DNA from: Brachybacterium sp. FME24
Lineage (GTDB): Bacteria; Actinomycetota; Actinomycetes; Actinomycetales; Dermabacteraceae
DNA: 64,000 nt
Reading direction: 5' to 3'
NCBI RefSeq assembly: GCF_014897705.1
Contig: NZ_JABUXV010000001.1
Coordinates: 372,001 to 436,000, forward strand
The notes beneath the pieces are model-generated. The model searched no databases. It saw only the letters and a list, made by a program, of their open reading frames with translations, and had not been told where the DNA came from. Position 1 is the stretch's first letter; the number at the start of each line of letters is the position of its first letter. Positions 7,607 through 39,685 of this stretch are shown piece after piece. Both the position numbers and the translations under genes were made by a program.

Positions 7607-7628
7607 GGTTCCTCCATCAGATAGGATG

Positions 7629-7669
7629 TGAACATGTTGTTCATAACGGAGAGTAGCACCGTAATGAAC
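7629..7669. promoter_or_regulatory. TetR operator candidate between SDR and tetR
   Basis: Three TGAAC/GTTCA half-sites are present. TGAAC-N5-GTTCA spans 7629-7643, and GTTCATAACGG (7639-7649) is an imperfect inverse (10 of 11) of CCGTAATGAAC (7659-7669). The overlap of two dyads in an 89-base divergent region is typical of autoregulated TetR loci. Confidence 0.6.
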
Positions 7670-7695
7670 GAACCGTCCACTAGAAGGAGTGAGCG

Positions 7696-21072: not shown

Positions 21073-22317
21073 GTGCCGCCAGTGATCACCGCCGAGGGTC
21101 TGTACAAGGTGTTCGGTCGACGACCCGCCCGGGGAGTGGAAGCGCTCCGCCAGGGCAGGAGCCGCGACGAACTGCGAGCAGACGGGCTCACCGCTGCCGT
21201 CATCGATGCGAGTTTCAGCGTCGACCCCGGAGAGATCTTCGTGGTGATGGGACTGTCCGGCTCGGGCAAGTCCACCCTGATCCGGATGGTCAACGGTCTC
21301 CTCCCGGCGACCGATGGTGAACTGCGCATCGGCGACGAGGTGCTGTCCTCGATGTCCCCCGCCAAGATCCGCGAGGTGCGTCGCCGACGCATCTCCATGG
21401 TGTTCCAGCACTTCGCCCTCCTGCCTCACCGCACGGTCGGCGAGAACGCCGCCTACGGGCTCGAGGTCAGCGGGATGAACCGCAGTGACCGCGAGGCGAA
21501 GGCCACCGAGGCCCTGGAGATGGTGGGCCTGGAGGGGTGGGGCGGCTACCGACCCTCTGCCCTCTCCGGCGGCATGCAGCAGCGCGTGGGGCTCGCCCGC
21601 GCGCTGGCCGCCGGCACCGACATCATGCTCATGGACGAAGCGTTCAGCGCCCTGGACCCCCTGATCCGCCGCGATATGCAGGATCAGCTCATCGAGCTCC
21701 AGCAGCGCCTGGAGAAGACGGTCCTGTTCATCACCCACGACCTCAACGAGGCCATGCGCATCGGCGACCGGATCGCCATGATGCGCGACGGCCGAATCGT
21801 GCAGGTCGGCACGTCGGACGAGATCCTCAACGAGCCCGCCAACGACTACGTGGCCCGCTTCATCCAGGACGTCGACCGCAGCCGCGTGCTCTCGGCCTCG
21901 TCGATCATGGAGCAGCCGCAGGAGACTCTCGGTGCCGCGCAGGGCCCGCGCACCGCGCACAAGCTGCTGCGTGAGTCGCAGACTCCCTGGCTGGTCGTGC
22001 TCAAGCGCGACCGCACTCCTGCCGGAGTGCTGTGGGAGGACGACGTCGCCCGTGCCGTCCGCGATGGCGAGGAGGCCCTGCCCTGGTCGACCGAGCACGG
22101 AATGCCCGTGGTCTCGCACGACACCCCGATCGCTGAGCTCTTCACGCTCTCGGCCCAGAACCTCAGCCCCCTCATCGTCACGGACGGGGCCGGGCACTTC
22201 GCCGGAGTGATCCCGCGCGTCACGCTGCTGACCGCAGCCGGCGCCGCCCTCTCGGAGGACGACGATGCCGCGCCCGCCCTGACCACGTCGATCTCCCCGG
22301 AAGGTGATGCCCGATGA
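21073..22317 (+). CDS. proV: Glycine betaine/proline-type ABC transporter ATP-binding subunit with CBS region
   Basis: 414 residues. The ATPase (about 40-270) has Walker [11 protein letters not shown]-loop, signature LSGGMQQR and Walker B DIMLMDEAFSALDP, with the H-loop in FITHDLNEAMR. It carries the ProV/OpuAA insertion before Walker A (GVEALRQGRSRDELR) and a C-terminal regulatory segment (about 280-395) resembling tandem CBS domains, which sense ionic strength in OpuA. The GTG is supported by AAGGAG. It overlaps the permease by ATGA. Energises uptake of compatible solutes such as betaine, choline or proline. Confidence 0.93.
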   Translation: MPPVITAEGLYKVFGRRPARGVEALRQGRSRDELRADGLTAAVIDASFSVDPGEIFVVMGLSGSGKSTLIRMVNGLLPATDGELRIGDEVLSSMSPAKIREVRRRRISMVFQHFALLPHRTVGENAAYGLEVSGMNRSDREAKATEALEMVGLEGWGGYRPSALSGGMQQRVGLARALAAGTDIMLMDEAFSALDPLIRRDMQDQLIELQQRLEKTVLFITHDLNEAMRIGDRIAMMRDGRIVQVGTSDEILNEPANDYVARFIQDVDRSRVLSASSIMEQPQETLGAAQGPRTAHKLLRESQTPWLVVLKRDRTPAGVLWEDDVARAVRDGEEALPWSTEHGMPVVSHDTPIAELFTLSAQNLSPLIVTDGAGHFAGVIPRVTLLTAAGAALSEDDDAAPALTTSISPEGDAR

Positions 22318-24363: not shown

Positions 24364-25476
24364 TCAGCCCTCGAGAACGACCTCGGCACCGGCCTTCGCC
24401 GAGGCGTAGCAGGCGTCGATCACGGTCGCGCGGCGCAGGGCGAGCGCTCCGTTGTGCCCGGTCCAGTCCTCGGAGCGGACCTTCTGCAGGAAGTTCGCGA
24501 CGGCGGCGGCGTGGCGACCGTCCGCGCCGACGACCGGCTGCAGCTCGGCAGGCATCCCGGCGACCTCGGTCCACACGGTGATCTGTGCTCCGGCGTCGCC
24601 GCCCCACTCGATGGTGGCGCCGCCGTCGGCCCCGTAGAGCGTCACGTAGCACAGGTCGTGCGGGATCCACTGGGCCCAGCTGGACTCCAGCAGCAGGGTC
24701 CCGCCGCCGTCCAGGCGCAGGAAAGCGGTCGCGAGGTCCTCGACCTCGAAGGGGACGCCGTCCTCGACCTGGGAGATGCCGAAGCCGGAACCGCCCCGGC
24801 CCAGCGGCCCGAACTCGGCGTGCGTGGAGGCCGAGGCTGCGGTGACCGTCGGCTCGCCCATCAGGTGCAGCGCCATATCGAGCATGTGGATGCCGATGTC
24901 CATCAGGGCGCCGCCGCCGGAGCTCTCGGACTTCGTGAACCAGGTGCCCAGCCCCGGGATGCCCTGGCGTCGGATCCAGCCGGTCTTCGCGTAGTAGAGC
25001 TTCCCGAGCACCCCGGATTCGACGACCGCCCGCAGCGCGGTGACGTCACCGCGCTGACGGTGGTTGAACGACACATCCAGCACGCGTCCGGCGCGATCGG
25101 CGGCCTCCACCATGCGAGCGGCGGACTCGGCGTTCTCGGCCATCGGCTTCTCGCTGATCACGTGCAGCCCGGCGTCGAGGGCGGCGATCGCCATCGGGGC
25201 GTGCAGGAACGTCGGGGTGGCGATGGAGACCGCGTCGAGCTCGGCCTCGGCGATCATCTGCTGCCAGTCCTGGTAGCGGCCGGGCACGTCGTGCTCATCC
25301 CCGAATCGGGCCAGGAGATGCTCCTCCATCGCGGAGATCGCGACCAGGTCCACGGTCGGATCGGCGGCGTAGGCGGCGACGTGCTGCTGGCCGGCCCATC
25401 CCAGGCCGATCACGCCGACGCGCACTCTGCGGTCGGTCCCCTGGGGTGCGGTTTCTGCCTGTCGTGCATCGGTCAT
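24364..25476 (-). CDS. Gfo/Idh/MocA-family oxidoreductase
   Basis: 370 residues. The N-terminal Rossmann domain has VGVIGLGWAGQQHVAAY and the conserved ISEKPMAEN (catalytic Lys of the EKP motif). The C-terminal substrate domain carries GGGALMDIGIHMLDMALHLMG, the GxxxDxxxH helix of the family. Members oxidise or reduce sugars and inositols with NAD(P). The ATG at 25476 is supported by GAGAGGA; frames beginning further upstream lack this. It lies 87 bases downstream of the ROK repressor on the same strand and opposite the sugar ABC genes, so it probably processes the imported carbohydrate. Confidence 0.9.
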   Translation of the reverse strand: MTDARQAETAPQGTDRRVRVGVIGLGWAGQQHVAAYAADPTVDLVAISAMEEHLLARFGDEHDVPGRYQDWQQMIAEAELDAVSIATPTFLHAPMAIAALDAGLHVISEKPMAENAESAARMVEAADRAGRVLDVSFNHRQRGDVTALRAVVESGVLGKLYYAKTGWIRRQGIPGLGTWFTKSESSGGGALMDIGIHMLDMALHLMGEPTVTAASASTHAEFGPLGRGGSGFGISQVEDGVPFEVEDLATAFLRLDGGGTLLLESSWAQWIPHDLCYVTLYGADGGATIEWGGDAGAQITVWTEVAGMPAELQPVVGADGRHAAAVANFLQKVRSEDWTGHNGALALRRATVIDACYASAKAGAEVVLEG

Positions 25477-25563
25477 CGTGCGGGGTCCTCTCATCGGTGG
25501 TCTTCGGTGGGTCTGCACGTCGGCCGGTCGTTCCGGGCCGCGCACGGTGGTCCCTCGTTCCCC

Positions 25564-26745
25564 TCAGGTCGGGGGGTCGAGGAGTGCAAGGGGGTCCTCC
25601 CGCAGGCGGGAGACGGCGTGCTCGATCGCTCCGCGCACGACCACGTCGCGTCCGAGCCCGCTCGCGACCAGCTCGGGGAACGGCGCATAGGCGATGTCCG
25701 GGAGCACCTCGCGGGTCCGCTGGAGAACGGGCTCCAGGGAGGAGGCGACGGCGCCGGCCATCACGATCCGTTCGACGCCGAGCAGGCTGACGAGGATGGC
25801 GGCGATCCGGGCGATGCGCTCGCCGATCCGGTCCAGGACGTCTCGCGCGAGCTCATCGCCGGCCTGCCCGGCGGCGAACACGTCGACCGCGCTGAGGGCG
25901 TCGGCGGGGATCGCGGCGAGCGCGGGTGAGCTGCGCCCGGTCGCGAGGCCCTCGAGCGTCCATCGGCGCGCGAGCGATGCCACGCCCTCTGCGCCGATAT
26001 CGTCCTGGAGCGCCGCCTCGAGGAAGCGCATCTCGCCGGCGCCGCCCAGGGCGCCGTGCAGCAGGTGCCCGTCGACCATGAGGCCGGCTCCGATGCGCTC
26101 CCCCACGAGCAGCGTGGCCATATTGACCTCGGGGTGCTGCGCGTGCTCCGCCAGGGCACTGAGGTTCGCGTCGTTCTCCACGACGACGGGCCCGTCGAGG
26201 TGCGCGGGGAATCCCGAGTTCATCAGGCGCCAGAAGGTACCCACCTCGATCGGGGAGGCCCCGTGGGAGTCGACCGGCGCGGGGATCCCGATCACGGTGA
26301 CCAGCAGGGGCGCGGTGGAGGCCGAGGCCTCTCGCACCTCGCGCACCAGTTCCTGGACGGTGCTGATCCGCAGCTCACGGTCCACCGTGGCCGGATCGAG
26401 CTCTCGCCGGGCGGTGGCGAGGGCAGCGCCGCGCAGGTCCGCGGCCATCGCGCGGTAGCCGCTGCGCCCGGCGTCGACGCCGATCACGAGCCCTGCCCCG
26501 GCCCGCAGGCGATGGCGACGCGCCGGTCGACCACGGCGCGAGAGACCCGCGGCGCGACTGTCCTCGGCCTCCTCGATCCAGCCCGCCACCGTGAGCTCGT
26601 CGCACAGTCCCAGCACCGTCGCCCGGGTGAGGCTGGTGGCCTCCATCGCTTCGGCGGCGGTGAAGGTGCCGGAGGTGAACGCATGGCGCAGCAGCGCCTC
26701 GATGTTCAGGCGGCGCAGCACGCTCATCGACACGTTCAAGCCCAT
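25564..26745 (-). CDS. ROK family transcriptional repressor
   Basis: 393 residues. An N-terminal winged helix (about 10-70, TAAEAMEATSLTRATVLGLCDEL) is followed by a ROK sugar-sensing domain (LVIGVDAGRSGYRAMAADLRG, then VVVENDANLSALAEHA). The zinc motif of classical ROK proteins is degenerate: the expected C-x-C-x4-C cluster is absent after GALGGAGEMRF. This argues for a regulator rather than a kinase. GGAGG sites lie immediately before the ATG. It is divergent from the ABC operon across a promoter with a TTAAAT/ATTTAA dyad, which it most likely binds, releasing on sugar binding. Confidence 0.88.
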   Translation of the reverse strand: MGLNVSMSVLRRLNIEALLRHAFTSGTFTAAEAMEATSLTRATVLGLCDELTVAGWIEEAEDSRAAGLSRRGRPARRHRLRAGAGLVIGVDAGRSGYRAMAADLRGAALATARRELDPATVDRELRISTVQELVREVREASASTAPLLVTVIGIPAPVDSHGASPIEVGTFWRLMNSGFPAHLDGPVVVENDANLSALAEHAQHPEVNMATLLVGERIGAGLMVDGHLLHGALGGAGEMRFLEAALQDDIGAEGVASLARRWTLEGLATGRSSPALAAIPADALSAVDVFAAGQAGDELARDVLDRIGERIARIAAILVSLLGVERIVMAGAVASSLEPVLQRTREVLPDIAYAPFPELVASGLGRDVVVRGAIEHAVSRLREDPLALLDPPT

Positions 26746-26759
26746 CTGCCTCCACCTCC

Positions 26760-26788
26760 TTGACGTCGACTATGACGCCCACCATACT
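26760..26788 (+). promoter_or_regulatory. Promoter of the carbohydrate ABC operon
   Basis: TTGACG (26760-26765), 17 bases, CATACT (26783-26788). The predicted start of transcription near 26795 lies just before the palindrome 26800-26822. Confidence 0.6.
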
Positions 26789-26799
26789 TTCTCCAAGCA

Positions 26800-26822
26800 T
26801 TAAATCTAGCAACTGAATTTAA
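26800..26822. promoter_or_regulatory. ROK operator candidate
   Basis: TTAAAT-N11-ATTTAA is a strikingly AT-rich dyad in a very GC-rich genome. It sits immediately downstream of the predicted transcription start and between the divergent repressor and transporter genes. ROK repressors such as NagC and XylR bind AT-rich dyads of similar form. Confidence 0.65.
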
Positions 26823-26850
26823 CGGTTGCGATGCCGCCGAGGAGACACTG

Positions 26851-28131
26851 TTGTCACCCAGACCTTTCAGCACCGGTCGTCCGACCCGCCGTTCCCTGCT
26901 CACCGCAGGAGCCGGAGCCGCCGGAGTTCTCGCCGCCGGCGGGCTCGCCGGATGCGGCTCGTCGAGCCGCCCGAGCGTGACCTTCTACCAATCCAAGCGC
27001 GAGGTGATCTCCCACTTCCGTGAGCTGGTCAGCGAGTTCAACACCGAGCAGTCGAGTTACTCCTACATCCACGACGTGGCGACGAACCTGCAGGCCGGGT
27101 TCGTGCGCGCCAACCCGCCGGATCTCGCCCTGCAGAACTACAACCTGGACATGGCGCGGTTCATGGAGCGCGGGGCCCTGTCGGATCTCGCCGACCTCCC
27201 CGAGGCCGGCAAGGTCCGCGACGAGGTGCTGGACCTGGTGGCGTGGTACCCCGGTTACGAGGGGCGCACCAGCGTCATCCCCTACTCCGTCGCCGCCTCC
27301 TCCGTCATCTACAACAAGCAGATCTTCGCGGACAACGGCCTCGAGGTCCCCACCACCTGGGATGAGCTGCTTGCCGTCTGCGAGGACCTGCTCGCCGCCG
27401 ACATCACCCCGATCTACGGCACCTTCCCGGAGCTGTGGACGATCACGCAGGGCCTGTTCGACTACGTCATCGGCGGCCGGGTCGACGTGCGGGACTTCTT
27501 CACCCAGCTGAACGAGATCGGCGAGGACGTCGGCCCGGATTCCGAGGTGTCCTTCCAGAAGACCCTGTTCGAGCCGGTCCAGCAGATGCTCGAGCTGCTG
27601 CCGTACTTCAACGAGGACGCCCCCAGTCGCAGTTACGGCGACGGCAACACCGCGATGGCACAGGGCAAGGCCGCCATGTACCTCCAGGGCCCGTGGGCCC
27701 TCGTGGAGATCGAGAAGGCCGGCACCGACGTCGAGCTGGGATCGTTTCCGCTCCCGGTGACCGACGATCCGGAGGATCTGAAGATCCGCGTGAACATCGA
27801 CCTGTCGCTGTGGATCCCGGAGCAGGCCGATGAGAAGGAGGGTGCCCGGGAGTTCCTCCAGCACCTGATGCTCCCGGAGATCCAGTTCCCCTACAACGAG
27901 CTGGCCCTCGCGTTCTCCACCACGGATGACGCCCCCGACGTGAGCGACCCGCGGATCTCCGAGATGCAGCCCTATTACGACGACGGGCGCTTCTACATGG
28001 GCGCTTCGCAGTTCATCCCGCCCACGATCCCCTTCCCGAACTATCTCCAGTCGATCGTGCTCGGAGCAGACCCGGAGCCGATCCTCGCCCAGCTCGATTC
28101 CGATTTCGCCCGGCTCGCCTACCGCGCCTGA
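26851..28131 (+). CDS. Carbohydrate ABC transporter substrate-binding lipoprotein
   Basis: 426 residues. A twin-arginine-like start (RPTRRSLLTAG) leads to the lipobox LAGC, followed by a type I sugar-binding protein (SBP_bac_1, cluster of maltose/multiple sugar proteins). Recognisable segments are PYSVAASSVIYNKQIF, ITQGLFDYVIGG and MAQGKAAMYLQGPWAL. TTG start with GAGGAGA upstream. Captures an unidentified oligosaccharide outside the cell. First gene of a three-gene operon without an ATPase, so a shared MsiK-type ATPase elsewhere is expected. Confidence 0.9.
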   Translation: MSPRPFSTGRPTRRSLLTAGAGAAGVLAAGGLAGCGSSSRPSVTFYQSKREVISHFRELVSEFNTEQSSYSYIHDVATNLQAGFVRANPPDLALQNYNLDMARFMERGALSDLADLPEAGKVRDEVLDLVAWYPGYEGRTSVIPYSVAASSVIYNKQIFADNGLEVPTTWDELLAVCEDLLAADITPIYGTFPELWTITQGLFDYVIGGRVDVRDFFTQLNEIGEDVGPDSEVSFQKTLFEPVQQMLELLPYFNEDAPSRSYGDGNTAMAQGKAAMYLQGPWALVEIEKAGTDVELGSFPLPVTDDPEDLKIRVNIDLSLWIPEQADEKEGAREFLQHLMLPEIQFPYNELALAFSTTDDAPDVSDPRISEMQPYYDDGRFYMGASQFIPPTIPFPNYLQSIVLGADPEPILAQLDSDFARLAYRA

Positions 28132-28167
28132 GCGGCCCATCCGCCGTCGACCCCAAGGACGCCCACC

Positions 28168-29124
28168 ATGTCAGCGCAGACATCTTCCGCCCCGAGGACC
28201 CGTGAGAGCGGGTCCACCGCCCGCTCCGTGGCCTCTCCCACCCCGGTGCCTCGCCGGCTCCGTCGTCGGGTAGATCCGATCTACTACGTGTTCCTCTTCC
28301 CCGCCCTGGCGATCTTCACCCTGGTGATCACGCTGCCGGCCGTCGTCGGCTTCTTCTACAGCTTCACGAACTCCGTGGGCTTCGGGGACTACGACTTCAT
28401 CGGCCTGCGCAACTACATCGCGCTGTTCCAGGATCCGAACATCCTCAGCGCCTACGTGTTCACGCTGGGCTTCGCCCTGATCACGGTGATCGTGGTCAAC
28501 ATTCTCGCCTTCGCCCTCGCGGTCATGCTGACCTCGAAGATCCGCTTCCAGACCGCGCTGCGCACCATCTTCGTGATCCCCATGGTCATCTCCGGGATCA
28601 TCATCGCGTTCGTGTTCAAGTTCCTCCTGTCCAACTCGCTGCCCGCCCTGGGCCAGGCGCTCGGCATCGGGGTGCTCTCCGAGTCGATCCTGGCCAACGA
28701 GAACCTGGCCTGGCTCGGCATCGTGGTGGTGACGGCCTGGTCCGCGATCCCCGGCGCGATGCTCATCTACATCGCCGGACTGGTCACGATCCCGGCCGAG
28801 CTGTACGAGGCGGCCGCGATCGACGGGGCCTCGGGGTGGCAGCGCCTGTCGCGCATCACTTTGCCGATGGTCTCCGGCTTCATCCTCATCAACACGATCC
28901 TGGGCTTCAAGGGCTTCCTCAACGCCTACGACGTCATCGTGGGCCTCACCGACGGCGGCCCGGGCACCGCCACCACGTCCATCGCCATGTCGATCTTCAA
29001 GGGATTCGGTGGCGGCGACTACGGCTACCAGATGGCGAACGCCGCGGTGTTCTTCCTGATCACCATCATCCTCGCCGGCCTCCAGCTGCGGCTCACCGCC
29101 GGGAAAGCGAGCTTCGGAGCATGA
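28168..29124 (+). CDS. Carbohydrate ABC transporter permease (MalF type)
   Basis: 318 residues. Six main membrane helices and the MalF-type EAA loop ELYEAAAIDGASGWQRLSRITLP, which docks on the ATPase. The end (DGGPGTATTSIAMSIFKGF) is characteristic of the first permease of sugar importers. A polar N-terminal tail of about 35 residues contains many Arg and Ser. It overlaps the next permease by ATGA. Confidence 0.92.
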   Translation: MSAQTSSAPRTRESGSTARSVASPTPVPRRLRRRVDPIYYVFLFPALAIFTLVITLPAVVGFFYSFTNSVGFGDYDFIGLRNYIALFQDPNILSAYVFTLGFALITVIVVNILAFALAVMLTSKIRFQTALRTIFVIPMVISGIIIAFVFKFLLSNSLPALGQALGIGVLSESILANENLAWLGIVVVTAWSAIPGAMLIYIAGLVTIPAELYEAAAIDGASGWQRLSRITLPMVSGFILINTILGFKGFLNAYDVIVGLTDGGPGTATTSIAMSIFKGFGGGDYGYQMANAAVFFLITIILAGLQLRLTAGKASFGA

Positions 29125-32720: not shown

Positions 32721-33043
32721 GGTGCCGCTCCCGCGACGGCGCGGGCACCGAGTGAGGCACTTCCGGGGGCCGCTTCCCGGCGATCCCACCACGAAGCGGT
32801 GACCTCGGCGAGCGCGTGCTCGCACAGGCCGAGGGAATAGTCGATCACGTCGGGCCGATCTGTTGGGCCGGCCCGGAGCCCGGATGCGCCTTCAGCCACC
32901 GCGATCCGCTGCGCGTCGAACCTAGCGGCCATCGCGTCACGAAGTGTTCACCCGGACGTGGCCTATCCGTCCACACAGCACCCTTACTGTGGCCGCATCG
33001 TCCACAGGGCCCGCGCCGCCAGGCCCCCACCGGAAGGCTCGCT
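32721..33043. other. Region without a supported gene before the HAD-phn cluster
   Basis: 323 bases. Open frames cross it on both strands, but none has a ribosome site or recognisable product. It must contain the promoter for the HAD-phn genes; no clear -35/-10 pair or dyad was identified. Confidence 0.4.
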
Positions 33044-33730
33044 GTGACCGCACGCCCCACCGTCGTCTTCGACTTCGACGGGACCCTCGCCCTCGGGCGC
33101 GGCCCGTTGCAGGCGTACATCACCGCTCTGGGCTCACAGCCCGGCGGCGACCGCGCCGTGGAGGCCTCCTTCGCCGCCCTCGCGGAGTTCGAGACAGGCA
33201 CCAGTGCGCACCGCGACGCCTACGATGCCGTGCGCACCGCCGCCCTGGCGCAGGGAATGCGCGACGCGGACCTCGGCCGCGCCTACCTCGCGAGCCGCGA
33301 CCTGCTCGGCACGGACGCCGCCCCGGTGGTCGCCCCGAAGGGCCTCGGCGATTTCCTTCGCGAACTGTCCGCGGAGGCCACCTGCGTGCTCGCCACCAAT
33401 GCGCCGCCCGTCGGCGTCGAACGGGCCCTGATCTCCCTCGGGATCGAGGACTCGATCAGCGACCGGCATCACGACGTCGGCAAGCCCGCCGGCCTCGCAC
33501 CGATCATCACGGCCCATCTCCGGAACGGCCCGGTGCTCGCCGTGGGAGACATCTGGGAGTTCGACCTCGCCCCTGCCGCCCTCCTCGGCGCGGACACCGC
33601 CCTGGTGGGCGTGCGCGAGACCGCCGACGCCCGCCCCACCCTGCGCGGCGCCGCCCTGAGCGACCTCTACGACCCGATCCGGGATTGGGCAGCCACTCCC
33701 CGCACCCCTCACGCCCCCCTCACCGCCTGA
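33044..33730 (+). CDS. HAD-family phosphatase (class I, phosphoglycolate phosphatase-like)
   Basis: 228 residues. Motif I is VFDFDGTLALG with the nucleophile Asp, a helical cap lies at about 20-90, motif II is in LATNAPP, the motif III lysine is in DVGKPAG and motif IV is GDIWEFDLAPA. The GTG start is supported by GGAAGG; longer frames add unconvincing sequence. It stands 46 bases before the phnD-like gene and is probably the first gene of that operon, suggesting it dephosphorylates or hydrolyses the imported compound. It lacks features that would identify it as phosphonoacetaldehyde hydrolase. Confidence 0.85.
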   Translation: MTARPTVVFDFDGTLALGRGPLQAYITALGSQPGGDRAVEASFAALAEFETGTSAHRDAYDAVRTAALAQGMRDADLGRAYLASRDLLGTDAAPVVAPKGLGDFLRELSAEATCVLATNAPPVGVERALISLGIEDSISDRHHDVGKPAGLAPIITAHLRNGPVLAVGDIWEFDLAPAALLGADTALVGVRETADARPTLRGAALSDLYDPIRDWAATPRTPHAPLTA

Positions 33731-33776
33731 CCAGCCCGTCTCGCCAGCTCGTCCCTCTCTCGAAAGGACTTCCGCC

Positions 33777-34781
33777 ATGCGCAAGAACCTCCTGACCACC
33801 TCCGCCGCGGCGTTCGCACTGCTCAGCATCGCCGGCTGCTCCTCAGCCGGCGGGGACACTGCATCCGGCGGCAGCGAGGAATGGCCCGAGGAGATCACGC
33901 TCTCCCTGGTCCCCTCCGTCGAGGGCGAGGACCTCGCCGAGGCCCTCGACCCGCTGAACGAGTACCTCTCCGAGGGCCTGGGCATCGAGGTCAACGGCGT
34001 GGTCGCGACCGACTACGCGGCGACCGTCGAAGCCCTCGGTGCCGATCAGGCACAGGTCGTCATCTCCGATGCCGGCTCGCTCTACCAGGCCGGTGAGCAG
34101 TACGGAGCCGAACTGATCCTGCGCGATGTGCGCTTCGGCGCCACCTCGTACGCGGCGATCGCGATGACGAACAACCCGGACAAGTACTGCGTGGACGACG
34201 TGGTCACCGCCGCCTACGGCGCCACCGGTGACGAGCTCTCCTACTGCAACGGCACCGAGACCGCCGCCGAGGCCGCCGGTCAGGGGCCTGCCGGTGTCGA
34301 GGCCCTGGCGAAGATCGACTCCTCCACCCCGGTGGCCCTGCAGGCCGCGACGTCTCCGGCCGGCTACCAGTACCCGCTGGTCGCCATGACGGAGCAGGGC
34401 GTGGACACCGACGCCCTGGATCAGGTCCCTGTCGAGGGCAACAACAATGCCGTCCTCGCCGTGCAGAACGGCGACGCCGAGGTCGGCTTCGCCTACTGGG
34501 ATGCCCGCAGCACCGTCATCGAGGAAGCACCGACCGTCGGTGAGGACACCGTGGTGTTCGCATACACCGAGATGATCCCCAACGGCGGCGTCGCCGTCTC
34601 GGACGCGCTGCCCGAGGACCTCGTCGCCGAGCTGACCACCTTGATGGACGAGTACGCGGAGTCCTCCGACGAGGCAGCCGACGTCATGTTCGACCTGGTG
34701 GGCCTGTCCGACTGGACCACCGACACCCAGCCGGAGCAGATCGCCCGCTACGGCGAGATCCTGGAGCAGTTCGCCCGGTGA
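33777..34781 (+). CDS. phnD: PhnD-type ABC transporter substrate-binding lipoprotein
   Basis: 334 residues. A lipoprotein signal ends in IAGC, then a phosphonate-type periplasmic binding protein (about 38-334): [21 protein letters not shown], the [16 protein letters not shown] strand and the [11 protein letters not shown] region, with [11 protein letters not shown] near the end. PhnD relatives bind phosphonates, phosphite, hypophosphite or phosphate esters. GAAAGGAC precedes the ATG. It overlaps phnC by four bases. Confidence 0.85.
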
Positions 34782-35608
34782 CCGCCTCCGATCCGATCAC
34801 CGCGGCGGCCGGGGACCTCGCCCCGGCCGCCTCCGGAGCGATCACCCTGCGCGATGTCACCGTCACGTATCCGGGTGGTACTCGTGCCCTGCGCGGTGTC
34901 TCCCTGTCCATCGCCCCCGGCGAGATGGTCTCCGTGGTGGGGCTGTCCGGCTCGGGCAAATCCACGCTGATCCGCACCATCAACGCGCTGGTGCCGATCA
35001 CGAGCGGGCGCCTCCTCGTCGGCGAGCAGGATGTCTCCCGCCTGTCCGGCCGGAGCCTGCGCGAGCTGCGGGGGCGCATCGGCATGATCTTCCAGGGCTT
35101 CAACCTGGCCGAGCGCACCAGCGTGCTGAGCAACGTGCTGGTGGGTCGATTCGCCCACTCCCCCGCCTGGCGCAGCCTGCTGGGACTCCCCAGCGCTCAG
35201 GACAAGCAGATCGCGATCGAGGCCCTGGACTCGGTGGGGATCCTGGATCGCGCCTGGTCCCGGGCCGGAGCCCTGTCCGGCGGGCAGAAACAGCGGGTGG
35301 CGATCGCTCGCGCCCTGTCCCAGCAGCCCTCGGTGATGCTGGCGGACGAACCCGTGGCGAGCCTGGACCCGCCCACGGCCCACTCCGTGATGCAGGATCT
35401 GCTGCGGATCAACGAGGAGCGCGGGTTGACAGTGCTGGTCAACCTGCACCTGATGGACCTCGCCCGCCAGTACACGACCCGGATGATCGGGCTGCGCGAC
35501 GGAGAAATGGTCTTCGACGGGCCAGCGGCCGACGCCACGGACCAGGACTTCGAGGCCATCTACGGCCGGCCGATCCAGGGCCGAGACGTGCTGGGAAGCG
35601 CGCCGTGA
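34778..35608 (+). CDS. phnC: PhnC-type ABC transporter ATP-binding subunit
   Basis: 276 residues. Walker A is [12 protein letters not shown], the Q-loop is in GMIFQGFNL, the signature is [15 protein letters not shown], Walker B is [13 protein letters not shown] and the H-loop is in NLHLMDLA. The PhnC hallmark insertion between Q-loop and signature ([19 protein letters not shown]) is present. GTG start overlapping phnD. Drives import through the two PhnE proteins. Confidence 0.93.
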
Positions 35609-36417
35609 GCACCCACGCGCAAGCCTCTGCGACCCTGCCGCGGCGGCCGACGCATCGTGTGCGGACCGCGCTGATCCTCGCAGCCCTCATCGCCTTCTCG
35701 GTCGCGACCTGCCTCCCGGCCATCGGCGGGGTGGAGATCGACCTGGAGTCGATCACCCGGAACTGGCGCAACGGTGCGAGCAAGCTCCAGCAGCTGGCGC
35801 AGCCGAACCTCGCATTCCTCCCGCGCACCCTGGGACCGATGCTGGAGACCCTGGCGATGGCCGTGGTCGGCGCCGTCACGGCCGCGCTGGTGTCGATCCC
35901 GGTGACGCTGTGGGCCGCGCGCCCGTCGAATCCGCACACGGTCACTCGGCAGCTGGTGCGGTTCGTGGTGAACATCGTGCGCTCCGTGCCGGATCTGGTC
36001 TACGCGACGATCCTGGTGGCGATGATCGGCGTGGGCACCCTGCCGGGAGTGGTCACGCTGATCCTGTTCGACATCGGCGTGGTCATCAAGCTGGTCTCCG
36101 AGGCGATCGACTCGACCGACCATCCCTACCTCGAGGCGGGCAGGGCCGCCGGGGGGACGCAACTGCAGATCAATCGGCGCACCGTGCTGCCGCAATCCTG
36201 GCCGCTGCTGACGAACCAGTGGCTCTACTCCCTCGAGCTGAACGTGCGCATCTCGGCGATCCTCGGCATCGTCGGCGCGGGCGGCATCGGGAGGCTGCTC
36301 GACGAGCGGCGTGCCTTCTATGCCTATGAGGACGTCTCGCTGATCATCCTGGAGATCCTGATCGTGGTGGTGCTGATCGAGCTGCTCTCGACCACGCTGC
36401 GCAAGAGGCTGCGATGA
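35605..36417 (+). CDS. phnE: PhnE-type ABC transporter permease, first copy
   Basis: 270 residues, six membrane helices. The permease loop ([24 protein letters not shown]) carries the E-A-G-x9-G core, and [23 protein letters not shown] is typical of PhnE. GTG start overlapping phnC by four bases and its stop overlapping the second permease by four. The end segment [23 protein letters not shown] matches the family. Confidence 0.9.
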
Positions 36418-37283
36418 GCGCCGCTGCCCGCCCCCAGCTCCGGCCCCCCTCGCCGGCGGCAGACCGCGGCGCGCCCTCACTGCCGCCGCGCCCCTCTCGC
36501 ACGGGTCCCACCGTGGCGGCGGTGATCGCGGGCGTGATAGTGGTGCTGGCGACGATCGAGCTGGACATCTCCTGGACGTCGCTCGGCGAGATCCCCGGTC
36601 GCGTCGCGAATTATCTCGTCCTGCTGTTCGCCGAGCCGAACTGGGAGAAGCTGCCGCGCGCGCTGTTCGAGACCTGGCGGTCGGTGTCGATGGCCTGGCT
36701 GGGAGCTATCGGCTGCGTGGCCCTGTCGATCCCGCTGGGCATCCTGGCGGCGCGGGGCGTCGGGCCGGCCTGGGTGCGCCTGCCGCTGCGCTGGCTGTTC
36801 GCCATCATCCGCGCCGTGCCGGAGGTCGTGATCGCCCTGGTGCTGCTCACCGTCACCGGGCTCACGCCGTTCACCGGCGCTCTCGCGCTCGGCATCGCCG
36901 GGATCGGCACCCAGGGCAAATGGGTCTACGAGACCGTCGAATCGGTCCAGGAGGGCGCCTCCGAGGCGGTCCGTGCCGCCGGCGGCTCCACGGCCGAGGT
37001 GGCGCGGTGGGCGCTGTGGCCGGCGGCTGCGCCGTCGTTGATGTCCTTCGCGCTCTACCGCTTCGAGATCAACATCCGCACCTCGGCGGTTCTGGGGCTG
37101 ATCGGTGCAGGTGGCATCGGCACTATGCTCTCGAACTACACCAACTACCGGGAGTGGGACACGGTGGGCATGCTGCTGATCGTGGTCGTCGTGATCACGA
37201 TGCTGATCGATCTGATCTCCGGCAGCATCCGGCGCCGGATCATGGAAGGAGCGCGCCCTCGTGTCGTGGACCGGACCCGCTGA
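36414..37283 (+). CDS. phnE: PhnE-type ABC transporter permease, second copy
   Basis: 289 residues. A Pro/Arg-rich N-terminal tail (about 1-35) and six helices. RAVPEVVIALVLLTVTGLTPFTG and the loop SVQEGASEAVRAAGGSTAEVARWALWP parallel the first copy but diverge strongly in sequence, so a heterodimeric channel is likely, as in other two-PhnE systems. It overlaps the downstream regulator by 23 bases. Confidence 0.9.
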   Translation: MSAAARPQLRPPSPAADRGAPSLPPRPSRTGPTVAAVIAGVIVVLATIELDISWTSLGEIPGRVANYLVLLFAEPNWEKLPRALFETWRSVSMAWLGAIGCVALSIPLGILAARGVGPAWVRLPLRWLFAIIRAVPEVVIALVLLTVTGLTPFTGALALGIAGIGTQGKWVYETVESVQEGASEAVRAAGGSTAEVARWALWPAAAPSLMSFALYRFEINIRTSAVLGLIGAGGIGTMLSNYTNYREWDTVGMLLIVVVVITMLIDLISGSIRRRIMEGARPRVVDRTR

Positions 37284-38118
37284 CGCCCCGTTGACCGCTC
37301 GGGTCGCGGCGCTGGGCCCGTCGTTCCATCCCAGCGAACGGCTGGTGGTCGACCGGATCACCGCGGATCTCGCCGGGGCCGTGGACTGCACGGCCCAGCA
37401 GCTCGCCGAGCAGGTCGGGGTGGGTCGGGCCTCGGTGGTCCGCACCGCCCGGGCACTCGGGTACGACGGCTACCCCCAGATGCGGGTGGCGCTGGCGCGC
37501 GAGCTGTCCTTCGATGAGGCCGACGAGCAGGACGCAGAGGGGGACGTCGGCTCTGTGCGCAGCTCGATCCTGCGCTTCGCCCGGACGCTGCCGCGGGTGA
37601 CGGCGGCGCTGTCCGAGGACGCCGTGGACGAGGTCGTCGCGGCGCTCGATGAGGCGGATCGGGTGGTGATCGCGGCGTCCGGGCTGTCGGTGCCGCTGGG
37701 TCTGAGTGCGGCGATGCGGCTGAGCGCCGCTGACCGGCCGGTGGAGTTCCTGCCTGATGCCCTGTCGCAGCTGATCGCGGCGCGGCGGCTCCGTGAGGGG
37801 TCGGTGTGTCTGGTGATCTCGGGTTCCGGCGCGAATCCGGCCTCGCTCGACGTCGCTGCCGAGGCCCGCAGGGCCGGTGCCCGGGTGCTCGCACTGACCT
37901 CCTTCGCCTCCGCGCCGCTGGTGGAGCTGGCGGATACGGCCCTGGTGGTGCCGACCGTGCACGAGTCGTTCTCCGACGAACTGAGGCAGACCTCCCGCGT
38001 CGCGCTCACCCTGGTGCTCGAGTCGGTGGTCGAGCTGCTGGTCGCGCGCCGCGGTGAGCAGGGCCGGGAGGCGCGGGCCTCCTTGATGGCCCTGCTCGGC
38101 GAGCGGATCAGCGAGTAG
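37261..38118 (+). CDS. RpiR/MurR-family transcriptional regulator
   Basis: 285 residues. An N-terminal HTH_6 domain (about 15-75, TAQQLAEQVGVGRASVVRTARALGYDGYPQMR) precedes a SIS phosphosugar-binding domain (about 110-250, VVIAASGLSVPLGLSAAMRL and LVISGSGANPAS). RpiR proteins sense phosphorylated sugars. Its placement at the end of the phn-like operon, with a GTG inside the previous gene, indicates co-expression and suggests that the imported compound or its product is a sugar- or polyol-phosphate. It converges with the FGGY kinase with an 11-base overlap. Confidence 0.9.
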   Translation: MSWTGPADAPLTARVAALGPSFHPSERLVVDRITADLAGAVDCTAQQLAEQVGVGRASVVRTARALGYDGYPQMRVALARELSFDEADEQDAEGDVGSVRSSILRFARTLPRVTAALSEDAVDEVVAALDEADRVVIAASGLSVPLGLSAAMRLSAADRPVEFLPDALSQLIAARRLREGSVCLVISGSGANPASLDVAAEARRAGARVLALTSFASAPLVELADTALVVPTVHESFSDELRQTSRVALTLVLESVVELLVARRGEQGREARASLMALLGERISE

Positions 38119-39685
38119 CCGAGGGCTTGCTCGACAGGGCACGAACCTGGGCGACCGCGCTGTAGAGCGCACGATGGGCCGAGCGCTGGGCGGCATGGCC
38201 GACCACGGCCGGCGCCTCCGGATCCACGATGCGACCCTCCTCCTGCACGGCGAGCGGGCGGATACGGTGCTGGAGCCCGAGAGCGTCCGCCCCCGCGAGG
38301 GCACAGCCCAGCAGCGCCGCATCTGCCCCGTGGACCGTGCGCACGGGGCGGCCCGTGACGTCGGCGAGGATTCGCAGCCACGGTGCGGAGGTGGCGCCGC
38401 CGCCCACGACCGTCAGCGGGCGGGACCCCTCGCCCGCACCGCCCGGGGCACACTGCTCCGATGCGTGCGACAGGGCGTGGGCGACGCCTTCGAGCACCGC
38501 GGCGTACAGGTCGATGCCACGGGTGTGGGGACCCATCCCGATGAGGGCGGCTCGCAGGTCGGCGTCGCGCACCGGGTAGCGCTCCCCGTGGATCGAGGGG
38601 AGGGCGAGCAGCCCCGTCGGCCCCCGGCCATCACGCCGTTCGCGGTCCTCCAGCAGGGCATCGGCCTGAGCGGGGGTGGCCCCCTTAAGCAGCGCCTCAC
38701 GAGCCCACGCCGCTGCGGCTCCGGCGGCCAGCACGGCGGAGATCCGCAGGACCGTTCGGGCGCTCCCGTCGCTCGATCCGAGTGCGAGATGGTGCGAGCT
38801 GCCCGCACCGGCCCCCTCGGAGGCCGGCAGCACCGAGGCGAGCCACCCGCTGGTGCCCAGGTAGGCGTAGTCCTCGCCCACGTCGAGGCCGACGAGTCCG
38901 AGCGTCGTCGCTGCGGCGTCCCCCGGGGCGAGCACCACGGGCAGTCCTGCCGGCAGCCCGAGCAGGTCCGGGGCGGAGGCGTCGGTGCGTCCGACGATCT
39001 GCCCCACGCCCGTCGTGAGAGCGGGGAGCAGCTGCTCCTCCAGGCCGGCGGCTCGCGCCACCGGTGCTGACCAGCTGCGATCGCGGGCATCGAGCAGACC
39101 GGTGGCGGCGGCGGTGGTGAGGTCGCACCAGAGCCCGCAGCCGAGCAGATGAGCGAGGTGGGCGGCGGGGCCGAACACCACGCCGCGGGCCCGCTGCACG
39201 GCCCCGGGGTCGGTGCGCGCGAGGCGTCGGAACATCGCGGCGCAGCTGGTGGCGTCCTGCAGATTGCCGGTCAGGTCGTTCCAGCTCGTGCCCGTGTCTC
39301 GCAGCTGCGCGTGCAGCTGGTCGGCGTCCTCTGCGGCGCGGGTGTCGCTGTACAGGATGGCGTGGACTGCCGCGCCCTCGGCGGTCTGGAGCACGAGGTC
39401 CTGCATCTGTCCGGTCATGCTCAGGGCCACGAGGTCACGGACATCGGGGAGATCGCCCAGGAGCTGCGTGATGACCGTGCGGGCGGCGCGCACCCAGTCG
39501 CCCGGGTTCTGCTCCGCTCCCCCGTCGTGCGTGGTGAGGGTGGCGTACGAGCCGGTCGCCTGAGCCGTGCTGGCGCCGTCGAGATCTATCAGGGCCGCTT
39601 TCACGGCGGAGGTCCCGAGGTCCAGGCACAGCAGAAGGGGCATAGGACAAGAGTAGAGGCGCGGATCGAGGAACCTGCCGGTCAC
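38108..39685 (-). CDS. FGGY-family carbohydrate kinase
   Basis: 525 residues from the GTG at 39685, which has GGAGG six bases upstream; the conventional start would be the ATG at 39643 (MPLLLCLDLGTSAVKAAL), which has no ribosome site. FGGY N-domain phosphate-binding loop DLGTSAVKA, substrate region SMTGQMQDLVL, and the catalytic Asp in LAPGDAAATTLG. The C-domain has GVAHALSHASEQC and VVGGGATSAPWLRILADVTG. It most resembles xylulokinase/gluconokinase-type enzymes; the sugar is not determined. Facing the RpiR gene, it probably belongs to the same catabolic module. Confidence 0.88.
   Translation of the reverse strand: MTGRFLDPRLYSCPMPLLLCLDLGTSAVKAALIDLDGASTAQATGSYATLTTHDGGAEQNPGDWVRAARTVITQLLGDLPDVRDLVALSMTGQMQDLVLQTAEGAAVHAILYSDTRAAEDADQLHAQLRDTGTSWNDLTGNLQDATSCAAMFRRLARTDPGAVQRARGVVFGPAAHLAHLLGCGLWCDLTTAAATGLLDARDRSWSAPVARAAGLEEQLLPALTTGVGQIVGRTDASAPDLLGLPAGLPVVLAPGDAAATTLGLVGLDVGEDYAYLGTSGWLASVLPASEGAGAGSSHHLALGSSDGSARTVLRISAVLAAGAAAAWAREALLKGATPAQADALLEDRERRDGRGPTGLLALPSIHGERYPVRDADLRAALIGMGPHTRGIDLYAAVLEGVAHALSHASEQCAPGGAGEGSRPLTVVGGGATSAPWLRILADVTGRPVRTVHGADAALLGCALAGADALGLQHRIRPLAVQEEGRIVDPEAPAVVGHAAQRSAHRALYSAVAQVRALSSKPSATR

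Follow-up and report, generated by a model that had tools for sequence, protein, structure and literature searches.

A conserved RpiR-linked operon with a HAD hydrolase and a PhnDCEE-type importer in Brachybacterium sp. FME24 and other actinobacteria: candidate uptake of a phosphorylated organic compound

A stretch of 64,000 nucleotides from Brachybacterium sp. FME24 (contig NZ_JABUXV010000001.1, positions 372,001 to 436,000; this whole stretch is called the window, and plain coordinates refer to it) contains an operon encoding a HAD-family hydrolase, a phosphonate-type ABC importer and an RpiR-family regulator. We consider it moderately probable that this operon, together with the operator in front of it (32956-38118), is an RpiR-controlled cassette which takes up an organic compound carrying phosphate, possibly as a phosphodiester, and dephosphorylates it. 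The ligand is most likely a polyol or sugar phosphate ester or a phosphodiester, and not a phosphonate.

The six genes are all located on the forward strand, in the order HAD hydrolase (33044-33730), substrate-binding protein (33777-34781), PhnC-type ATPase (34778-35608), PhnE-type permeases 1 (35605-36417) and 2 (36414-37283) and RpiR regulator (37261-38118). From the binding protein through RpiR the genes overlap by 4, 4, 4 and 23 bp, and the six genes form one densely packed operon. The HAD protein, of the DxDGT phosphatase type, scored over the curated cut-offs of PF12710 and PF00702. The binding protein, a PhnD-like putative lipoprotein, passed TIGR01098 and PF12974, the ATPase passed TIGR02315 (311 bits, cut-off 266) and both permeases passed TIGR01097 (252 and 250 bits, cut-off 217). 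With all these transporter models over cut-off, the importer belongs to the PhnT family (3.A.1.9) in the wide sense. The regulator carries the HTH_6 and SIS domains (PF01418 and PF01380, over cut-offs) that define RpiR/MurR proteins.

Public loci were collected by a search with the binding protein, one genome per species, and the best 80 of 95 relatives were analysed. They come mostly from Microbacterium, Demequina, Cryobacterium, Cellulomonas, Brachybacterium and similar genera; these loci are relatives of one another, and the counts given here are not independent events. All six operon genes were present in 74 loci and stood in identical order in 72. In the two loci that are out of order (L026 and L029, both Demequina) the best HAD match is an extra copy 3' of RpiR, and another copy occupies the usual place. 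Four of the six incomplete loci run off contig ends; the other two, L025 and L079, lack HAD, which was found in 78/80 loci. RpiR was found in 76/80, and its four misses are all contig ends. Median identity to the window proteins ranged from 44% (HAD) to 69% (PhnC). Within the family of the window organism, a module-type binding protein (E≤1e-150) was encoded by 5 of 47 genomes, and no plasmid copy of the binding protein was found at E 1e-20. In Demequina (L026-L035) the module lies within what we take to be a housekeeping block, between recO-like and uppS-like genes. The six genes thus constitute a genuine module that is widespread in actinobacteria. An earlier note, made from the letters of the window, had named these open reading frames (ORFs) in this order and had joined them into a HAD-PhnDCEE-RpiR module in which the HAD enzyme goes with the transporter. 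The ORF positions and curated models agree with its assignments, the neighbourhood check confirmed the grouping of the six genes, and the retention of HAD supports the proposed link.

Two palindromes precede the operon. The main one, CTGTGGCCGCATCGTCCACAG (32987-33007, no strand assigned), lies 36 bp 5' of the HAD start and has a matrix score of 22.6; its core is TGGACG-N3-CGTCCA. The distal one, ACGTGGCCTATCCGTCCACAC (32956-32976, likewise without strand), is placed exactly 31 bp upstream and scores 10.7. Scoring was carried out with a symmetric matrix for whose training each region supplied one site; the regions came from 78 public loci, from L082 and from the window. A main site had to score above the 99% quantile obtained with 1600 shuffled regions. 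Such a site was located ahead of HAD, 6-87 bp 5' of the gene, in 78 of the 80 regions, a count which is partly circular because the matrix was trained on those same regions. The two misses were again L026 and L029, for which the analysis had taken the HAD copy behind RpiR; in both, the pair is present ahead of the first HAD. The second palindrome lay outside the training. In 65 of 82 loci the position exactly 31 bp 5' of the main site scored >5. The mean score at this offset was +7.7, and the median for the whole range of offsets (12-70 bp) was -40.7. Equally spaced pairs were observed ahead of the binding protein in L025, L143, L144 and L079.

The tandem pattern was also scanned for in 297 genomes of the order. 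With up to 3 mismatches, matches were obtained in 50 genomes and with the reversed control in 23 (the latter figure was counted from a table in which the mismatch numbers of the control matches are not given). At 0-1 mismatch the pattern occurred in 21/297 genomes. Comparison by eye of operator and binding-protein places put 20 of these beside a module-type binding protein and one, in genome G159, ahead of a HAD gene. A scan of the own genome with TGGMCGNNNYGTCCA found 10 places, with 6 matches in forward and 6 in reverse orientation; the reversed control gave 2 and 5. Only the module site scored >20, followed by L110 (17.9) and L103 (15.2). Both of these are located inside ORFs, and a wider regulon in this genome was rejected. 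The L110 palindrome (G000:C48:159787-159801) falls within the coding sequence of a GDPD-family gene (PF03009, glycerophosphodiesterase family), which is suggestive and probably due to chance. Judged by position and co-conservation, RpiR presumably binds the tandem palindromes.

Further high-scoring places were seen in the window itself. Those at 7626 and 7662 belong to two TGAAC-type palindromes (7626-7682) in front of a TetR-like gene (7696, forward strand), from which an SDR-like gene diverges (both named by sight); these palindromes are probably the operator of the TetR-like regulator itself. Another place, at 21629, is inside a coding sequence.

The HAD protein has the features of a phosphatase. 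Its motif I reads DFDGT (DxDGT), with D10, D12, G13 and T14 found in 59/59 aligned rows (57 loci or window, with a few duplicate contigs), and T118, K147, D169 and D174 as well as Y81, S84 and R85 were equally invariant. The catalytic DxD, Thr, Lys and Asp motifs are intact, and the activity is predicted from them. Phosphonatases (PhnX) carry DxAGT as motif I and lack the second Asp. At E≤0.01 no NCBIfam model matched the window HAD. When the 394 genomes of the class were scanned with a HAD profile, 7 had a match (E≤1e-20); six of them have a module binding protein, the seventh is G342.

The genes for phosphonate use were looked for in the whole genome. A PhnJ search (PF06007) gave 0 matches in the own genome and was positive in the E. 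coli control genome. Elsewhere in the genome (G000:C21; L163:85-2202) a separate PhnE ORF of 434 amino acids is encoded (TIGR01097, 367.6 bits, cut-off 216.7). It is followed by a HAD gene with the motif DMAGT, for which the nearest model is TIGR03351 (PhnX-like; 217.5 bits, cut-off 218.9). Behind this gene lies one that resembles, by sight, a zinc alcohol dehydrogenase gene. The genome search with TIGR01422, in which no control genome scored over the cut-off, shows nothing by itself. Since the genome has this separate PhnE and PhnX-like pair and no PhnJ, the window module is probably not its phosphonate system. Motif I and the presence of a separate PhnX-like protein led us to reject a phosphonatase function of the window HAD. 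In agreement with the earlier note, the module does not resemble an operon for phosphonate degradation.

The ligand site of the binding protein was analysed by fold comparison and alignment. The predicted structure (mean pLDDT 86) matched PtxB best (5o2k_E; VIA Z 24.6, root mean square deviation (rmsd) 2.5, 252 aligned), followed by PhnD (Z 22.2, rmsd 3.2, 259 aligned), HtxB (Z 21.7, rmsd 3.0, 256 aligned) and GpxB (Z 18.5, rmsd 6.0, 254 aligned). A sterol-transport protein and arsenite/arsenate binders of the same fold were also listed by the search. In PhnD-type binding proteins a conserved STS-H motif is described as holding the phosphoryl oxygens, with the His contacting the third oxygen in PtxB (PMC5700983). 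Profile alignment placed these positions at Ser193, Pro194, Ala195 and Asn222, invariant in 69/69 rows (66 distinct sequences). Thus, Ser193 is kept, while the Thr, the second Ser and the His of the motif have given way to P194, A195 and N222, and the clamp in its STS-H form is absent. Trp241, Asp242 and Arg244 were also invariant in the 69 rows; position 270, which aligns with Asp205 of E. coli, is Gly in 37 rows and Asp in 32. The PhnD equivalog model TIGR03431 was not reached (83.3 bits, cut-off 261.1). A loss of just the third-oxygen site, as in HtxB, was considered and dropped in view of the retained Ser193 and Tyr80 (comparison as given in PMC5700983).

All three distant relatives looked at (L101, L149, L159) have Ser-Ala-Ser and His. 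L149 and L159 adjoin a HAD homologue, L101 showed none, and the genomes G157 and G231 carry both types of binding protein. Because the distant relatives have these residues, the phosphoryl clamp was probably present in the ancestor and altered in the module branch. The ancestral protein is likely to have bound a phosphoryl ligand, and it is unlikely that the present ligand is held as phosphonates are.

Among described systems, GpxB of marine bacteria is a PhnT-family protein which binds glycerol-1- and glycerol-3-phosphate, with a phosphate site of Ser-Asn-Ser and His (PMC12718374). It resembles the module in importer family and fold and is an example of an organophosphate rather than a phosphonate ligand; unlike GpxB, the module protein has Ser-Pro-Ala and Asn at the site. 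A word search of the main text of that paper, which did not extend to the gene-neighbourhood figure, found neither the word 'phosphatase' nor a named regulator. The phnFDCE operon of Mycobacterium smegmatis is likewise an actinobacterial PhnDCE transporter with its own regulator, but this regulator, PhnF, is of the GntR type and the substrate is reported to be phosphate (PMC7866108). The PhnCDE importer (E. coli PhnD) and those of PtxB and HtxB share their transporter protein families with the module, from which they differ in that the module has lost the clamp, has a phosphatase-type HAD, RpiR and the tandem operator, and stands in a genome without PhnJ. Amino-sugar operons controlled by RpiR/MurR have an HTH_6 and SIS regulator beside a transporter. 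In contrast to these, the module contains no sugar kinase, etherase or deaminase, and a PhnT importer replaces the PTS or CUT one. In Bifidobacterium longum, the proteins ACJ51153-ACJ51159 are tabulated as a metallophosphoesterase, two permeases, ATPase, binding protein, RpiR and HAD and labelled by annotation as a putative phosphonate porter; the accompanying passage gives no function, operator or role of the HAD (PMC8477406). Going by the names and consecutive accessions, this cluster is probably the same kind of module. Apart from that table entry, the literature searched contained no HAD-PhnDCEE-RpiR module as a described system.

Many loci encode an additional protein, here termed the companion. 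It has about 200-290 residues (the ORF starts are uncertain) and was found in 55/80 loci. In 54 of these it is located directly upstream of HAD, 43 times divergently and 11 times in the same direction, and the copy in L013 is 4 kb off. The operator region lies between companion and HAD or in front of both. The family (for example L019:8482-9084) is marked by motifs around W..STV.DEN and NAGLLHVYGYL..TPYG.KRDRW. Four members were scanned against Pfam and NCBIfam without a match at E up to 1, and the only match among PDB sequences (E 0.81) is not credible. The companion structure was predicted with high confidence (pLDDT 96) and had no strong counterpart among the compared PDB chains; no Foldseek match was obtained at E≤0.001. 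The best VIA match (Z 4.9, rmsd 4.2, 108 aligned), to a chain of a CDI toxin-immunity complex, may mean nothing; further ones, including RelE-, HigB- and BrnT-like chains at Z 2.2-2.5, are too weak to call. The companion was absent from all 47 genomes of the window's family. A profile scan of the 297 order genomes, which also demonstrates that the profile works, found it in 6; four of these carry it next to the module. Since 37 of the 41 order genomes with the binding protein have no companion, it is an accessory of some lineages. Next to 11 companion-less loci outside Demequina, 45 flanking proteins were compared (44 of 140 listed and the L079 phosphoesterase), and no enzyme recurred in the 25 families listed out of 73.

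Some loci combine the operator with other genes. In L145 (2350-8251), from the more distant genome G159, the tandem operator is followed by HAD, a CUT1-type permease and binding protein, another permease, a protein of the MBL fold and RpiR. Here a CUT1 ABC importer is substituted for PhnDCEE beside the same operator, HAD and RpiR. The importer proteins are nearest to the UgpB and UgpE models, with UgpA second for one permease, and the MBL protein is nearest to RNase J models, all below cut-off. In L158 (G342) the end of a CUT1 permease, HAD and MBL occur together with a more distant RpiR (29%), and the pair of HAD and MBL genes and this RpiR stand beside genes which we take to be nagB-like and nagA-like (L158:3878-5971). 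In the Bifidobacterium locus L079 a calcineurin-like phosphoesterase gene is located just ahead of the operator; its nearest models are 3',5'-cAMP and 2',3'-cyclic nucleotide phosphodiesterases, below cut-off. In L143, L144 and L025 the operator directly precedes the binding protein, without HAD.

In the proposed mechanism, RpiR would occupy both palindromes cooperatively and repress the operon. The imported compound, or a phosphorylated intermediate, would be bound by the SIS domain, which would release RpiR and induce expression. The binding protein would hand a phosphorus-containing organic compound to the PhnC-E-E importer, and the HAD enzyme would remove the phosphate in the cytosol. Several observations weigh against such a cassette. 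The lost clamp could mean a ligand free of phosphorus. L025, L079 and the operons of L143 and L144 do without a HAD gene, which shows that HAD is not strictly required. The link between RpiR and the operator is drawn from position and co-conservation only, and the scan for the tandem pattern is specific only at few mismatches (50/297 genomes against 23/297 for the control at ≤3). The combination of CUT1 importer and operator is known from one genome, in whose family HAD was found in 1 of 13 genomes and which has a contamination value of 4%; contamination may be involved. In L158 no operator match was found. Of the interpretation in the earlier note, the linking of importer, HAD and RpiR is supported, as they form a conserved unit with a shared operator. 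The phosphorylated nature of the substrate is likely and yet unproven, because the binding protein does not have the usual phosphoryl clamp.

A narrower form of the same idea is that a phosphodiester, such as a glycerophosphodiester or a wall-polymer fragment, enters the cell intact, that a lineage-specific phosphodiesterase cleaves it and that HAD then removes the phosphate. We regard this as a tentative possibility; its appeal lies in the phosphoesterase-type neighbours, from different families, that occur in some lineages (calcineurin-like in L079, MBL in L145 and L158). The weak structural matches of the companion, with RelE-, HigB- and BrnT-like chains among them, the Ugp-like replacement transporter of L145 and the change of the His contacting the third oxygen in PtxB (PMC5700983) to Asn in 69/69 rows point in this direction, as does the second-best operator-like site of the own genome, which is in the GDPD gene, though intragenic. 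However, no phosphodiesterase was recognised among the scanned neighbours in the window, and none was recurrent in the listed families around the 11 companion-less loci. The best structural Z of the companion is just 4.9, and the site is unlike the two-oxygen clamp described for HtxB, as Ser193 and Tyr80 are kept and Thr and the second Ser are changed. A little more doubtful still is the full evolutionary scenario, in which a phosphodiester importer arose within the phosphonate-importer family, lost the clamp, and its core of RpiR, operator and HAD was paired with unrelated phosphodiester-cutting proteins (companion, MBL, calcineurin-like) and even with a CUT1 importer.

Alternatively, the importer could have been recruited to a phosphorus-free compound, with HAD acting on a metabolite formed after uptake. 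The replacement of three of the four clamp residues, the invariant Trp241, Asp242 and Arg244, the sterol, arsenite and arsenate proteins in the fold search and the operons without HAD are in line with this. It is nevertheless unlikely in our view, as HAD accompanies the importer in 78/80 loci, distant relatives retain the clamp Ser and His, and phosphoesterase-type neighbours occur in some lineages. Less credible again is an ordinary importer of phosphonate, phosphite or phosphate, as the model names would have it. Such an importer would agree with TIGR01098, TIGR02315 and TIGR01097 scoring over cut-off, with a predicted fold closest to PtxB and PhnD and with phosphate import by PhnDCE of M. 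smegmatis (PMC7866108). Against it stand the missed PhnD equivalog model (83 versus 261 bits), the replacement of three STS-H residues, the phosphatase-type HAD, the separate PhnE and PhnX-like pair and the lack of PhnJ.

The window also contains a gene for an FGGY carbohydrate kinase (ORF 38108-39685, reverse strand, likelier ATG start at 39643), which passed PF00370 and PF02782 and is XylB-like (212 bits, below the XylB cut-off of 380). It faces the operon, and its ORF shares 11 bp with RpiR (38108-38118), an overlap correctly given in the earlier note. There the kinase was thought to rephosphorylate the sugar released by HAD. That step did not survive the comparison: none of the 80 public loci, 66 of which extend at least 2 kb past RpiR, contains the kinase. 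Of the 47 family genomes, 28 have a kinase homologue (E≤1e-40), and in 24 of these 28 a module-type binding protein is absent. In the four other module-bearing family genomes the homologue is distant (G003, G022), on a separate contig (G030) or absent (G031). The regions around three kinase homologues, read as ORF starts, led to no pathway assignment. The kinase was therefore rejected as a pathway member for lack of conservation with the module, an outcome that the earlier note itself had listed as refuting, and is best taken as a chance neighbour outside it. A full cycle of sugar phosphate import, dephosphorylation by HAD and rephosphorylation by the kinase, which the convergent, overlapping arrangement could suggest, is very improbable given 0/80 loci with the kinase, unlinked homologues in G003, G022 and G030, and 24 kinase-bearing family genomes without the module. 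A few kb 5' of the module (24364-29124), genes for a Gfo/Idh oxidoreductase, a ROK protein and a CUT1-type binding protein and permease are present.

The transporter genes pass curated phosphonate models, and their relatives at 80 loci would be named alike, yet the cargo here is probably a different one. The clear regulatory signature, the broken clamp and, in many lineages, the attached companion family make it possible to search for the substrate directly and to correct the annotation. If the uptake of a phosphate ester or diester holds true, the module would represent an unrecognised actinobacterial route for recycling membrane or wall phosphates.

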